NCBI GenBank assembly: GCA_026416715.1
Contig: JAOAEQ010000004.1
Location: forward strand, 1-64,000
DNA length: 64,000 nt
Reading direction: 5' to 3'
Source: a bacterium
GTDB taxonomy: Bacteria > UBP4 > UBA4092 > JAOAEQ01
Shown here: piece after piece, positions 1 through 14,954 of the stretch
Numbering within the stretch: position 1 is the stretch's first letter
How the letters are laid out: every line of letters starts with the position of its first letter
The notes under the pieces: generated by a model
What the model saw: the letters and a program-made list of their open reading frames with translations, nothing else
Database searches by the model: none
What the model was told of the DNA's origin: nothing
Position numbers and translations under genes: made by a program

Positions 1-1110
1 ACCGCGACCTGCAACTGTATTCGGGTCTTTTGTATTCATTAGTTCATCCGGCACGGGGTCATAGCCCCAGTTCTCGAATAATACCCGCCGTTTCTTCTCC
101 AGATATTGTTCCGCTTGTGTGAACACTTCGTAATCTTTTTGCGTAGCTACTCTGTATCTTTTTCCCTTATTCGCTAATGCTCTTGTGCTATTTCCTCCCT
201 GTAAAACAACTACTACCATTCTCTGTCCTGCTTTCCCCGTTTGAAATTGGTTGCGCACATCTTTATCGCTCAATCCGGAACCACAACACGGACAGATAAC
301 TCTCGCCCGTGATACCGTCCCGTTCTCAGGGTCGAAATCAATTTTTTTCCCTTCAACAATTTCAAATGCAACGGTATTTTTTCTGGGTATCAACCGATAC
401 GCTACTCGTTTATTCTCTTTTTTCGCGAGCCACGTCTGACGAACTAGCGGAATTTCTGCGCCACATTTCGGATTGTTGCATTTAACGGTTCTCGCCCAGA
501 TATAACCAACTGGAATAGAACCGTCAGGGTCAGCGGGATAAAACTTCCCGAGTTCTTTTTTCGCTTCTTCGAGAACCCAAGTACCCCATTTCTTTACATC
601 TTCTAGTAACGGATTGATTTCCCTTACGCCAGCTAAATCACCGGATTTGACTTTTTTCGGTTGTCCGTATTTCTGCGGATATTCCAGTGTGCATTTTTCA
701 ATTAACACAGCAACCGGATTCAAATCGCTCGCATAAGTCTCACAGCCTAGCCGTAACGCTTCTAACGGGATCGCGCCGCCACCAGCAAACGGGTCGAGCA
801 CTTTCGGTGGTTTGCCATTATTCGCGTTTAGGATTTCTTCTCTTGCTCGGTTGATTAAATCTTTATTCAACGAATTTTCCCATTTGGAAAGATTATGGAT
901 AAACTGGACGCGTTTTAATCGTTCTTCTTCATCTTTCGGTTCAGGCGTTAAACAGGCATAAATTGACGCACGAGATGAAGCTAACGGCCGTCGTGCCCAC
1001 CAGATATGCAGTGTCGAAATATGCCCGTGTCGGATATTCTTCTCCCGAGCGGATTCTTCGCTAACTTCCTTTACCGGAAAATCTACTTCAATAAACGATT
1101 TCTTCGGCAT
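1..1110 (-). CDS. DUF1156 adenine-specific DNA methylase, N-terminal part (runs off left edge)
   Basis: Predicted N6-adenine DNA methyltransferase of the DUF1156/COG1743 family; 370 codons are present and the frame is still open at the window edge, so the C-terminus is missing. Residues 1-50 match the family's N-terminal signature ([14 protein letters not shown], then [13 protein letters not shown]). The SAM-binding motif I is [18 protein letters not shown] central insert has a Zn-ribbon-like arrangement (CNNPKC and CPCC), as usual for this family. The catalytic NPPY-type motif is not seen and probably lies outside the window. The ATG at 1108-1110 has AGAGGA upstream. The frame is also open upstream of this ATG for 81 codons, into an AlbA_2-like remnant. 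With the upstream SNF2 helicase it resembles a phage-defence locus (DISARM or helicase-methylase-ATPase type). The defence role is inference; the methylase call is firm. Confidence 0.88.
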
Positions 1111-1353
1111 TTTGTATTTCCTCTTTAAGTTATATAATATAACAAAGTCAGTATTAAAGTTTGTACTGTCCGATGTTATGCAATTTTCTTTAACATAGGA
1201 TACCGCTTGAATCTGTCGTTCATTCAGCCCTAGATTGTGCAGGTATTCTTCGGTACAAATATCTTTCCGAAATAAAGTTAAAATTCCACCTGTAATCTCC
1301 TGTAATTCTAGTGCATACAATCCATACTGTCGTTTCCGATTCAGCTTATTTAA
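1111..1353 (-). pseudogene. Remnant of an AlbA_2-type ATP-binding/regulator protein C-terminus
   Basis: Between helicase and methylase there are 81 sense codons with no convincing start, bounded upstream by TAA at 1354-1356 and in frame with the methylase ATG. The translation contains [12 protein letters not shown], then [20 protein letters not shown] and [10 protein letters not shown] recognise this as the hinge and start of the C-terminal winged helix of AlbA_2/COG2865 proteins (family-like LGLNERQ.KAV.YVKE..KIT). The N-terminal AlbA_2 and ATP-binding domains are absent, and the winged helix breaks off after about ten residues. I read this as a gene largely deleted between its two neighbours. 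Because the frame is open into the methylase, an N-terminally extended methylase from a non-ATG start is possible but less likely. Confidence 0.6.
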
Positions 1354-1376
1354 TTATTTTTAAAGGTCAGTCTGAA

Positions 1377-4300
1377 TCATTTCACCACCGCAGCGTTATC
1401 CTTCCAATTTTTAATGAGATACCGAACGATACTCACTTCTTCTTCTGGCGTCAAGCAGGAAGCAGGATTCTGGATGAGGAATAGTTCAGGTTCGCTCCTA
1501 GCATTCGTTACGATATAGAGCCAATATTCATCTTTCAACCGTTGCGCCATCAGCCATTCATTCGGAGTAAGAATAACCGCTCCTTCTCTCGCGCGCGCTT
1601 TAACTTCAATATACCGATAGTTATCCTGAGCATCTTTTGACCGAATATCATACCCTAAATTCTGATGATGCACATCTTCAGCGGCTCGCCCTTGTTGTTT
1701 TTCATAATCCATCGCAACCTGCATTCCGATTCGTTCGATTTCTTCATCGGTAACCATCCGTAGTGTGGTCTCATCGGGTGAAGCTGGGATAACGCGCACT
1801 ACCCCGATAATTTTCGGATCCGTAGCATAGAGCGCTACTTCTGCTTGAATATCGTGCAGAAGTCGGTCTTTTTTGCGGAGTAAATCTTCTTTTTTTGCTT
1901 GTTCTTTTTGGACGGTCGGCTCTGGAATCGGTGCTCCCTTCATCTTTCTGGTTTCATAATCAGTTAATTTCGCATCGGAATCGAGTATCATTGCCTCCAG
2001 AGAGCGAATCCCATACTTACTTTTAATATCTGTATCTCGTTGCCGTCTAGCTAATAGTTCCTGTTTATATATTTCTAATCCATTGGTTACTACAAAGGAT
2101 TTAACCGTATCGGCATCGATGATTTGGTCTAATGGCTGGTTCAGTGTCGCATTGTCCAGTGCTGATACCGGTTTTAAGTCCCATAAAATCGCTGGGTTGA
2201 CAAAAGATAAACGGGTATGTTCTAGCTCCTGATACACCGCAAATAACCGCTTGCCAGCGATTTCGTTCTTTCCGTCTTTAATTTCTGATTCAAAAAACCA
2301 GAGGATTCCGTTCATTTTCCCATCTGGGTCAATAAAAATCGCTCCGTCACGAACCTCTGGCTCAAACTGAGTAAAGATTGTCTCTACGACCGCTTCGAGT
2401 AGCGGATGACCCATCGCCACGAATTCTGCCTGATGCTTAAATGCGTTCTCTTTATCGAACGATACGTTCGCATATTCTCGAAGTACTTCTCCATATTTAG
2501 TTTTGAAATGATGCGGTTGATTTCGCAGCTCAAATGGAACCGAAGTTATCCGCCAGAACCCGTCCTCGCGTTTATCCAGCTTGATATTAAACTTTTTTGC
2601 TGCGCGTTTGAAAAATTCTTCAATATATTCCGGGACGAGTTTGTTTTCTTTCGCGAAACGCTGTTCACCTAAAATCCTGGCTAAATCTATATGCCGAGTT
2701 GCTAACGCTTCTAAACTCGCTTCTTTTACCTTCTTTATCGCTTCTTCATCAGGAATACGTTCAAAATCTTTTAAAATATCATCCATACTCCGCCGGTTCG
2801 CTATCGCATCAACAATCAGGTCTTTAAGACTTTTCCCAACCAACACTTCGCCAACAACATCAAATACCCTATCCGAACCGAGATGTTCTCGAATCCGAGC
2901 CAATTTCTCGAACAGCTTATTTAAAATCATCCCTTCCCGAGTATCCATCGCTACCAAGTTATAAATATGGACTTCATGTTGTTGCCCATACCGATGAATC
3001 CGACCCATCCGCTGTTCTAACCGATTGGGATTCCAAGGAATATCATAGTTGACCATTAAGGAACAAAATTGAAGGTTAATCCCTTCACCGCCCGCTTCCG
3101 TTGAGACCATAATCTGTACCCGCTGCTGATTTTTAAAATCTTGTTCCGCTTGAATCCGCTGGTCGAGATTCATGCCACCATGGATGTAGGTTACCGTATA
3201 TCCCCATTTGCGGAGCTTTTCAACTAAATATTCTAAGGTGTCCCTTGCTTCAGTGAAGATAAGCAGTTTCGTTTTGGTTTGCTGAAGTTTTTCTACATCC
3301 ATCACTGTCTTCAATTCAGTCAGTTTCGTCTCAATCTCTTTCTTCTCTGCTTCCTTGGCAAGAGTGACCAGTTCAGCAAGTTTATCGATTTCGACTTTCA
3401 GTTCTTCTAACGTTTCTGCAGACGTAAATTTCTCTAACAACTCTTCTTCTTTTTTCCATCGTTCTTTTTCTTCTAAATCTTCAAGATATTCTTCATCATA
3501 ACCGATTTCTTGAATTATCTGTCCCTTTTCGTAGAGTTGCTTTAATCGTTCGTATCTACGCTCTAAAGATTTTCTAATCGCACGGATGCTGGAAGCGAGT
3601 CGTCGTTGCAAGATGGTTAAGGCGAAAGTAACATTCCGTTTTTCTTTTTGTAACGCTTTATTGAAATGTTGTTCTACATATTCGGTCACAGCATTATAGA
3701 GTTTTTTTTCGTCATCGGAAAGATAATATTTCACCGTGTCAACGTGCCGTGGCGGAAATATCGGGGTACCATCGAAATTTTTTAAATCTTCTTTCAACCG
3801 ACGGATGAATAACGGATTATCTTTATTCTGGATAGATTCGGCTAGCATCTCAGTATTTGCGAAGAATCCGGGTTCGAGTAAGTCGAGGAGTAACCGGAAA
3901 TTCTCAGGATCGCCCCGATGTGGAGTAGCGGTGAGAAACAGGAGATAATTGGTTAACTGCGATAACTGTTCCCCGAAAAAATACCGCTGCGTTTTGTTTA
4001 CCTTCTCACCATATTTATATGCCGACATTTTATGCGCTTCATCAACAATACAGAGGTCCCATCTCGAATCTTTTAACGCGAATAAAACATCGTCTTGCTT
4101 AGCGAAATCCATCGAAACGATGATTTGATTCCTATCGGTAAAAATGTTCTGTCCCCAGGAGGAATTCATTACTCCTCTATCTAGGAGTATGAAATTTTCT
4201 TGGAACTTCTCCTTCATTTCCCGCAGCCATTGGTCTTTCAGATGTCCAGGAACAACGATCAGTACCCGCTCGACTAAACCCCGATACTTCAGCTCTTTCA

Positions 4301-4715
4301 GCAGTAATCCGGCCATGATGGTTTTCCCTGCACCAGGGTCATCCGCTAGCATAAATCGTATCCGTGGATTCTGAATAATGTAATGGTAAACCGCTTCAAT
4401 CTGATGCGGTAACGGGTCGATTTGAGAGACATTGACCGCATAAAGCGGGTCGAACTGGAACGCATTCCGGATACGGTGCGATTCGAGATACAAAAATAAT
4501 GTTTCGCCATCAGCCGTGAATTGGTATGGTTTCTCTTCGATAATCTCAACCGTTTTTAAATCCTCTTCAGAAAAAATCGAATTGTAATATTGACGGGTAT
4601 TTAATCCTACCGCTTCAATACGAATTCGCGTTCCGCTAAACGGTTGAACTGATATCACCCTGACTCGCTCCGGCCAAAACGGTCCTTTGAGGATAGTTCC
4701 CAGCTGAATTGGCAT
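1377..4715 (-). CDS. SNF2-family DEAH helicase with C-terminal DUF3883 (defence-type)
   Basis: A 1112-residue superfamily 2 DNA translocase. Walker A is DDPGAGKT (about 125-132), the DEAH box is VDEAHKM (about 224-230), and the C-terminal helicase lobe holds HGGMNLDQR and QRMGRIHRYGQ (arginine finger). A charged coiled-coil-like stretch rich in E and K lies around 400-490. The end of the protein is a DUF3883 domain (DMHH-like GRAAEDVHHQNLGYDI, then YIEVKARA), often found at the C-terminus of defence helicases such as DrmD-like proteins. The start is supported by AGGAG nine bases before the ATG and by a promoter 48-77 bases upstream. It is followed by an AlbA_2-like remnant and a DUF1156 methylase, so it probably translocates DNA in a restriction- or DISARM/Hma-like system whose other genes lie left of the window. 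Confidence 0.9.
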   Translation of the reverse strand: MPIQLGTILKGPFWPERVRVISVQPFSGTRIRIEAVGLNTRQYYNSIFSEEDLKTVEIIEEKPYQFTADGETLFLYLESHRIRNAFQFDPLYAVNVSQIDPLPHQIEAVYHYIIQNPRIRFMLADDPGAGKTIMAGLLLKELKYRGLVERVLIVVPGHLKDQWLREMKEKFQENFILLDRGVMNSSWGQNIFTDRNQIIVSMDFAKQDDVLFALKDSRWDLCIVDEAHKMSAYKYGEKVNKTQRYFFGEQLSQLTNYLLFLTATPHRGDPENFRLLLDLLEPGFFANTEMLAESIQNKDNPLFIRRLKEDLKNFDGTPIFPPRHVDTVKYYLSDDEKKLYNAVTEYVEQHFNKALQKEKRNVTFALTILQRRLASSIRAIRKSLERRYERLKQLYEKGQIIQEIGYDEEYLEDLEEKERWKKEEELLEKFTSAETLEELKVEIDKLAELVTLAKEAEKKEIETKLTELKTVMDVEKLQQTKTKLLIFTEARDTLEYLVEKLRKWGYTVTYIHGGMNLDQRIQAEQDFKNQQRVQIMVSTEAGGEGINLQFCSLMVNYDIPWNPNRLEQRMGRIHRYGQQHEVHIYNLVAMDTREGMILNKLFEKLARIREHLGSDRVFDVVGEVLVGKSLKDLIVDAIANRRSMDDILKDFERIPDEEAIKKVKEASLEALATRHIDLARILGEQRFAKENKLVPEYIEEFFKRAAKKFNIKLDKREDGFWRITSVPFELRNQPHHFKTKYGEVLREYANVSFDKENAFKHQAEFVAMGHPLLEAVVETIFTQFEPEVRDGAIFIDPDGKMNGILWFFESEIKDGKNEIAGKRLFAVYQELEHTRLSFVNPAILWDLKPVSALDNATLNQPLDQIIDADTVKSFVVTNGLEIYKQELLARRQRDTDIKSKYGIRSLEAMILDSDAKLTDYETRKMKGAPIPEPTVQKEQAKKEDLLRKKDRLLHDIQAEVALYATDPKIIGVVRVIPASPDETTLRMVTDEEIERIGMQVAMDYEKQQGRAAEDVHHQNLGYDIRSKDAQDNYRYIEVKARAREGAVILTPNEWLMAQRLKDEYWLYIVTNARSEPELFLIQNPASCLTPEEEVSIVRYLIKNWKDNAAVVK

Positions 4716-12857: not shown

Positions 12858-14144
12858 ATGGTAACACTAAAAGACATTAAAATTGGAATAGGCTATCCAC
12901 TCGTGCTTATTGCTGGACCTTGCGTAATCGAAAATCCAACGATGGCTTTTGAGCTCGCGCAAGAATTGAAATCGATTGCGCAACAGGTTGGGATTCCGTT
13001 CATTTATAAAGCATCGTATGATAAAGCGAATCGGTCAAGTATCAGGTCGTTTCGTGGACCTGGCCTAAAAGAAGGTATAAAAATCCTTGCGAAAATAAAA
13101 AAGAAAGTCGCTGTCCCGATTTTAACTGATGTCCATTGTGTAACTCAGGTAGAAACGGTCGCTGAAGTTGCGGATATCATGCAAATTCCAGCGTTTTTAT
13201 GCCGACAGACGGATTTAGTCGTTACCGTAGCGAAGACCGGGAAAATCGTTAATGTTAAAAAAGGGCAGTTCCTTTCCCCATGGGAGATGAACAATATTAT
13301 CGAGAAAATTGAATCAACCGGTAATAAACAAATTTTATTAACTGAACGAGGGACTTCGTTTGGATATAATAATCTTGTCGTTGATATGCGTTCGTTACCG
13401 ATATTGCGCTCGTTCGGTTATCCAGTTATCTTTGATGGAACCCATTCAGTTCAGCAGCCGGGTGGTGCGGGAGATAAAACGAGTGGTGACCGGACGATGG
13501 TGCCCTATCTCTGCCGAGCAGCGGTTGCAGTTGGTTGTGATGGAATATTCCTTGAAGTACATCAGCAGCCGGAATTAGCGAAAAGCGATGCTGCAAATGC
13601 GCTAGCGCTTGGTAATTTAAAGCCGTTATTACAGCAACTTATCCAAATCCATAAGATTCATTTCACAAATGAAACTAAAATTACAGAGTTCGCTGATTCT
13701 TCTAAATCTCAACCTGCAGTGGGAAGTTCAAATCGTCAATCTGCAATCCTGTATATTGACGGGGCGTCACGGGGTAATCCTGGCGATGCAGGGATAGGTA
13801 TTCTGCTTACCGATACACAGGGGAACGAACTCGGGCGTATGGCGAAATATATTGGTAAAACGACCAATAATGTTGCGGAATATACCGCATTGATTGAAGG
13901 ATTACAATTGGCGCAAACGTTAGGAATCGAAGAACTTCAGATTATTTCTGATAGTGAACTGTTAGTCCGTCAGCTTAGTGGGAAGTATAACATTAAACAA
14001 CCGCATCTAAAACAGCTCTATCACCAGGTTAAACAGTTATCTACCCAGTTTAGAAAGACTACCGTGAATCACGTTCCACGAGAAAAGAATCGCGACGCTG
14101 ATAGACTGGCCAACGAAGCTATCGACGAAAAAAATAATTTATAG
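12858..14144 (+). CDS. kdsA: KdsA (Kdo-8-phosphate synthase) fused to RNase HI
   Basis: One 428-residue frame encodes two enzymes. Residues 1-266 are 3-deoxy-8-phosphooctulonate synthase, which joins PEP and arabinose 5-phosphate for LPS Kdo: AGPCVIE, KASYDKANRSS, TDVH, VKKGQFLSPWE, DGTHSVQQPGG, FLEVHQQPELAKSDAAN. Cys22, His196, Glu233 and Asp244 match the metal-dependent class (E. coli has Asn at the Cys position). After a polar linker (about 267-294), residues 295-425 are RNase HI: YIDGASRGNPG (D301), NNVAEYTAL (E341), ISDSELLV (D365) and NRDADRLAN (D415), the full DEDD set. Both halves look intact with no frame slip. Why they are joined is unknown; separate activities are the simplest reading. 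The ATG follows a T-run with only a weak AGG upstream. Confidence 0.93.
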   Translation: MVTLKDIKIGIGYPLVLIAGPCVIENPTMAFELAQELKSIAQQVGIPFIYKASYDKANRSSIRSFRGPGLKEGIKILAKIKKKVAVPILTDVHCVTQVETVAEVADIMQIPAFLCRQTDLVVTVAKTGKIVNVKKGQFLSPWEMNNIIEKIESTGNKQILLTERGTSFGYNNLVVDMRSLPILRSFGYPVIFDGTHSVQQPGGAGDKTSGDRTMVPYLCRAAVAVGCDGIFLEVHQQPELAKSDAANALALGNLKPLLQQLIQIHKIHFTNETKITEFADSSKSQPAVGSSNRQSAILYIDGASRGNPGDAGIGILLTDTQGNELGRMAKYIGKTTNNVAEYTALIEGLQLAQTLGIEELQIISDSELLVRQLSGKYNIKQPHLKQLYHQVKQLSTQFRKTTVNHVPREKNRDADRLANEAIDEKNNL

Positions 14145-14258: not shown

Positions 14259-14954
14259 TTAATCTAGTTGAACCGTGGTACGTGCATATTTCCGGTCATA
14301 CAATTTCTGGTCATACGGCGCACGTCGTCCAGGACAAATTTCTCGCGGGCATAATTGACAGCTTTCAAAATCGACTTCAGTTGGAAATCGTATTCCAGAA
14401 ATGGATTTTGTCGGCACCATTACCATACTTTCCGTTAAAGTTACTCCGATGGTTTCTTGTGTATCTCCTAGTAATGAAAAGAGAATCCGCTGTTCTGAAA
14501 TTGGCCAATCGTCAAGCGATCCCGGACTCATAGTAGCGGATTTTCCGGGATGGAATGTTTGAACGAGATGGGAATTCATCATATCAAACGCGATGGTTAA
14601 CGCTTCAGCTTTAATTGCATCTGCCCAATATTGATGTAATGGGTCAGCAATCTTATTCGCCCAAGTTTCCAATTCCGTTCCGCACGTAGCTACATAAAGG
14701 AACACTCGATGGGCGTGTTCTAAATTAACCCGCAACACACGGCTGGTAAACCGTTTACCGTCCAGTTCGATATAGTCTTCACCTTTAGCATCAATATAGA
14801 ACGGTTTATATAATCCTTTCGGTTTTCCGATTGATTCCGCTTCTTCTACCAATACAGTTAATTCGTTATCGAAACGAGTATCATCAGGTGGTATCCGTAA
14901 CCGAGATTTTAACTTATCTCGATTTAGTTTGAATGGTTCTGCAATAACTATCAT
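14259..14954 (-). CDS. Stand-alone MetH activation-domain-like protein
   Basis: 231 residues resembling the vitamin B12-dependent methionine synthase activation domain, without the folate, homocysteine or cobalamin domains. Matching features: YVATCGTELE, a DAIKAEAL helix, SPGSLDDWPISEQRILFSLL, IGVTLTESMVMVPTKSISG, and a Cys-rich end (CQLCPREICPGRRAPYD) common in stand-alone homologues. In MetH this domain binds SAM and reductively remethylates cob(II)alamin. Here it may reactivate a separate cobalamin methyltransferase or serve another SAM/cobalamin system. It lies 17 bases downstream of tkt, so it is probably in the same transcript. The partner is not in the window. Confidence 0.8.
   Translation of the reverse strand: MIVIAEPFKLNRDKLKSRLRIPPDDTRFDNELTVLVEEAESIGKPKGLYKPFYIDAKGEDYIELDGKRFTSRVLRVNLEHAHRVFLYVATCGTELETWANKIADPLHQYWADAIKAEALTIAFDMMNSHLVQTFHPGKSATMSPGSLDDWPISEQRILFSLLGDTQETIGVTLTESMVMVPTKSISGIRFPTEVDFESCQLCPREICPGRRAPYDQKLYDRKYARTTVQLD

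Follow-up and report, generated by a model that had tools for sequence, protein, structure and literature searches.

The window, a stretch of 64,000 nucleotides of bacterial DNA, encodes a Kdo-8-phosphate synthase (KdsA) and a ribonuclease HI (RNase HI) within one polypeptide. This fusion is real, intact and lineage-specific, as it is found in both genomes sampled from the phylum. We consider it probable that the gene encodes a bifunctional KdsA-RNase HI protein derived from two genes that were joined in frame, and that its domains work largely independently. The two enzymes are known ones in a new combination, which is unreported in the open-access papers searched: these contained neither a KdsA-RNase H fusion nor a link between kdsA and rnhA, in agreement with an earlier reading of the DNA from sequence alone (the sequence-only reading), which knew of no characterized fusion of this kind.

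The open reading frame corresponds exactly to positions 12858–14144 of the plus strand (Table 1), confirming the single intact frame of the sequence-only reading. No stop codon is present inside the 428-codon frame, including the linker, where a stop in the reads had been named as evidence against a fusion; in the assembled sequence there are none. In the fusion protein, Pfam identified DAHP_synth_1 (residues 4–266, 1.2e-77), RVT_3 (PF13456; residues 301–421, 1.1e-29, 103.3 bits with a gathering cut-off of 21.6) and RNase_H (PF00075; residues 294–422, 3.4e-13, 50.4 bits with a gathering cut-off of 25.8). The AlphaFold2 model (mean pLDDT 89.8, pTM 0.64) comprises two confident domains, connected by a stretch (residues 271–292) with a pLDDT below 50 that is predicted to be disordered. 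The single candidate start codon within the frame from which RNase HI could be made separately is an in-frame GTG at linker residue 288, and no clear ribosome site was seen before it.

Table 1. Features of the fusion gene in the window.
Feature	Position	Strand	Description
kdsA-rnhA fusion gene	12858..14144	+	428 aa, ATG to TAG, single open frame; both domains recognized by Pfam and NCBIfam
KdsA (KDO8P synthase) domain, residues 1–267	12858..13658	+	TIGR01362; metal site C22/H196/E233/D244; KANR motif 56–59
Polar linker, residues 268–294	13659..13739	+	Sequence HFTNETKITEFADSSKSQPAVGSSNRQ; 27 residues
RNase HI domain, residues 295–424	13740..14129	+	RVT_3 and RNase_H matches; acids D301/E341/D365/D415

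The N-terminal part of the protein scored 398 bits against the NCBIfam model KDO8P_synth (TIGR01362), for which the cut-off is 314. An identity as DAHP synthase is ruled out by the NCBIfam scores, as all DAHP synthase models remained far below their own cut-offs on the fusion protein. The domain has the features of the metal-dependent class of KdsA, with the ligands C22, H196, E233, and D244 (the complete metal site described in the sequence-only reading) and K56-A57-N58-R59. These residues are invariant in the aligned relatives, with the exception of A57, which is nearly invariant. In the model, the KdsA domain aligns with structures of KDO8P synthase at 1.1–1.6 Å. It shares the full catalytic domain and the metal site with the stand-alone KDO8P synthase (KdsA, TIGR01362) of Aquifex aeolicus (1fwn, 304 bits), whereas the present protein adds the C-terminal linker and the RNase HI domain. 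The KdsA core is likely to produce Kdo-8-phosphate from PEP and arabinose-5-phosphate for the inner core of LPS; indirect support for this activity comes from the kdsB gene of the genome.

In the C-terminal half we readily identified all the catalytic carboxylates of RNase HI (D-E-D-D: D301, E341, D365, and D415), consistent with the full domain with four catalytic acids noted earlier, and these residues are invariant across 32 relatives. The nearest proteins are the RNase HI domain of Rv2228c, RNases H of the Halobacterium type and the solved RNases H 3u3g and 4h8k. The match to NF005567 (bifunctional RNase H/acid phosphatase) is limited to the RNase H part and reached 145.8 bits vs. a cut-off of 326. 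By sequence, both enzyme domains of the fusion are complete and have kept their catalytic residues. RNase HI domains of this type were also encountered in other contexts. In one genome (L075:1–1899 region, G025:C42) the domain forms the C-terminus of a CoA_binding/Succ_CoA_lig protein, in one 628-aa frame, and a 469-aa open frame (G035:C34:9073–10347) contains three tandem RNase HI-like domains, two of which have diverged.

Besides the present genome (G000), the phylum is represented by one further genome (G001), from a different family of the same class. It encodes a fusion of 425 aa (L043:10693–11970, minus strand) with the same architecture and domain order and a linker of similar length, which answers the concern that the two domains might always be separate genes in homologues. 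The two proteins are 54% identical over their whole length, with 61% identity for KdsA, 45.4% for RNase HI and 21.7% for the linker, and all four RNase HI catalytic acids are kept in both. The gene neighborhoods of the two fusions differ. As separate neighboring kdsA and rnhA genes occur in other genomes, one base error could mimic a fusion; yet G001, an independent genome that has diverged from the present one and has other genes beside the fusion, shows the same domain order and a similar linker length. A local artefact of assembly or frameshift is thereby ruled out, and we attach a vanishingly small chance to the general explanation that a sequencing or assembly error joined two separate neighboring genes.

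Each of the two genomes has one copy of KdsA; a second, weaker match is a separate DAHPS-type gene (C4:136633, 36% identical). The fused RNase HI is the sole PF00075 match in each, and when its sequence was used as a query no other match was found in either genome. A search for a separate rnhA or rnhB, as had been advised, thus identified rnhB, located elsewhere as a separate gene in both genomes, and detected no other RNase HI. The fused protein therefore appears to supply the RNase HI of the genome, and we infer that its domain removes RNA-DNA hybrids in the cell beside the product of rnhB. In the present genome kdsB lies away from the fusion, next to an HldE-type sugar kinase gene (the kinase was identified by inspection), and a strong kdsB-type match in G001 is also located away from the fusion. 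With kdsB present in addition to a sole KdsA, the cell very likely makes CMP-Kdo.

The gene content bears on the possibility that only one of the domains matters, for instance if the nucleolytic role of the RNase HI had been lost or altered and the domain now served KdsA as an attachment that binds nucleic acid or has a structural function. The lower conservation of RNase HI between the two fusions (45%, against 61% for KdsA) could be read in this way, but such a value is ordinary for this RNase HI family between phyla. Together with the retention of the four catalytic acids in both fusions and the lack of another detected RNase HI in either genome, this makes a one-sided function highly improbable.

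The fusion gene is flanked by genes for a sodium:solute symporter, a PAS-GGDEF protein, a protein with a partial Met_synt_B12 match and a transketolase. The partial match (29.3 bits, to the activation domain of B12-dependent methionine synthase) is found in a 231-aa protein encoded at 14259–14954 on the minus strand. No RNA families were found in the window at the gathering score, and a promoter scan showed no excess over shuffled sequences. A terminator scan was slightly above the shuffles, with the signal on the opposite strand.

In a sample of 386 genomes from across the domain Bacteria, a single match spanning both domains was found in G000 and G001 only. No further kdsA-rnhA fusions were found in 35 genomes of the phylum of G126, which has the nearest KdsA, or in 45 genomes of the phylum of G065, and the KdsA relatives found in a scan of genome contigs were all unfused. 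With both genomes of its phylum positive and no others among the combined total of about 460 genomes surveyed, the fusion qualifies as the lineage marker that the sequence-only reading had suggested. In 31 other families for which both genes could be placed, kdsA and rnhA are on different contigs or have 30 kb or more between them, in a comparison by eye. A second kind of proximity was observed in another genome (G252; L042, 5–3281), where rnhA is near kdsA but divergent from it, with another gene in between; here rnhA is accompanied by a zinc-ribbon-type coiled-coil gene and kdsA by a KpsF/KdsD-like gene.

A different arrangement is present in the G065 phylum, in which 31 of the 45 genomes, from about ten families, contain 32 loci with kdsA and this type of rnhA. 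The rnhA gene is directly downstream of kdsA on the same strand in 27 of the 32 loci, and in the other five it is found 1.1–6.2 kb downstream, also on the same strand. For three loci the position of the RNase H gene was estimated, as BLAST joined both genes across the stop; inspection of the junctions confirmed the adjacency. Junctions range from 4-nt overlaps (ATGA), which are often seen, to gaps of approximately 225 nt. Long open frames hinted at fusions in this phylum as well, and these were rejected, since a stop codon ends kdsA in all of the loci that were checked. In two loci examined for gene order (L122 of G065, 340–4640; L124 of G458) the order is hldE-type nucleotidyltransferase, kdsB, pyrG, kdsA, rnhA, where the first gene and pyrG of L124 were recognized by eye through their similarity to L122. 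In both, rnhA ends a CMP-Kdo cluster that includes the gene for CTP synthase, and is followed by a TldD-like gene. The statement in the sequence-only reading that the two activities have no known link does not hold at the level of gene order, given that the separate genes are linked in this phylum, directly adjacent in most loci and behind CMP-Kdo genes in the two loci examined.

The unfused pair has the same two enzymes as the fusion, in the same order and on the same strand, as neighboring or overlapping genes, and differs from it in that kdsA has kept its stop codon and the enzymes are encoded by two genes rather than as one chain. Because of this pair, the fusion looks like a gene pair that was joined into one frame. 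Most likely, a linked kdsA-rnhA pair became a single frame when the stop codon of kdsA was lost or a small indel occurred; the pair in the G065 phylum would be a likely kind of precursor, as a model and not as a demonstrated ancestor. Free tree searches with either domain were weakly resolved and did not group the two fusions. Trees constrained to place the two fusions in one clade obtained a higher score than the free search and were not rejected (AU p = 0.605 for RNase HI and 0.897 for KdsA). These data are compatible with a fusion that arose once in this phylum.

The low-confidence stretch at residues 271–292 and the diverged linker fit two enzymes on a flexible tether, which would work largely independently. 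KdsA enzymes whose structures are known form tetramers, and the fusion is therefore expected to make a multimer of RNase HI; it would also fix a 1:1 expression of KdsA and RNase HI. Subsequently, the fusion was most likely retained because both halves are needed, with no requirement for the joining itself.

Coupling of the activities offers a different explanation, in which RNase HI is controlled by the substrate state or oligomerization of KdsA, or Kdo synthesis by the binding of hybrids, so that envelope growth would be tied to replication or transcription. The fusion has been kept in two diverged families, as would likewise be expected if the fusion itself were under selection (the sample of fused sequences is two), and the same two genes stay linked in a second phylum beyond chance adjacency. 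In addition, crosstalk between domains is described for DAHP synthase-chorismate mutase fusions (PMC12202928). Against this, the linker is only 22% identical and predicted to be disordered, the two enzymes have no substrate or pathway in common, kdsA and rnhA are unlinked in the 31 other families, and the nearest analogue, MSMEG_4305, is functionally dissociated in vivo (PMC7466739). Coupling of this kind is unlikely in our view, and it is decidedly unlikely that the gene linkage in the G065 phylum and the fusion described here reflect a real, undescribed functional tie between Kdo synthesis and the removal of RNA-DNA hybrids, such as the state of one enzyme controlling the other. The unknown coupling allowed for in the sequence-only reading is thus recast mainly as gene adjacency followed by gene fusion; its other part, direct coupling, is unsupported and of low probability.

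The fusion adds an LPS-biosynthesis enzyme to the partners of RNase HI and, which is unusual, has a visible unfused counterpart, a pair of linked genes in another phylum. It can serve to mark a phylum that has been poorly sampled, and provides a clean test case for whether such fusions bring coupling or stay neutral. Should KdsA be essential in these cells, their sole RNase HI would be carried by an LPS enzyme that the cell cannot do without.

Among known systems, the DAHP synthase-chorismate mutase fusions likewise join an enzyme of this aldolase superfamily to a second one; in these, both enzymes act in one pathway, and crosstalk has been reported (PMC12202928), whereas the partner here is a nucleic-acid enzyme. 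More similar is the RNase HI-CobC fusion (Rv2228c/MSMEG_4305; NF005567), which is restricted to one lineage and in which a variable linker connects an RNase HI of the same RVT_3-like type with a metabolic enzyme unrelated to it (PMC7466739). In that protein RNase HI comes first and is followed by a CobC-type phosphatase, in contrast to the KdsA partner and C-terminal RNase HI of the present protein, and a second RNase HI exists in M. smegmatis, whereas none was detected in the two fusion genomes. The domains of MSMEG_4305 are dissociable in vivo, and the authors favored fixation of the fusion by drift (PMC7466739). By analogy, dissociable domains and fixation by drift are most likely for the KdsA-RNase HI fusion as well.
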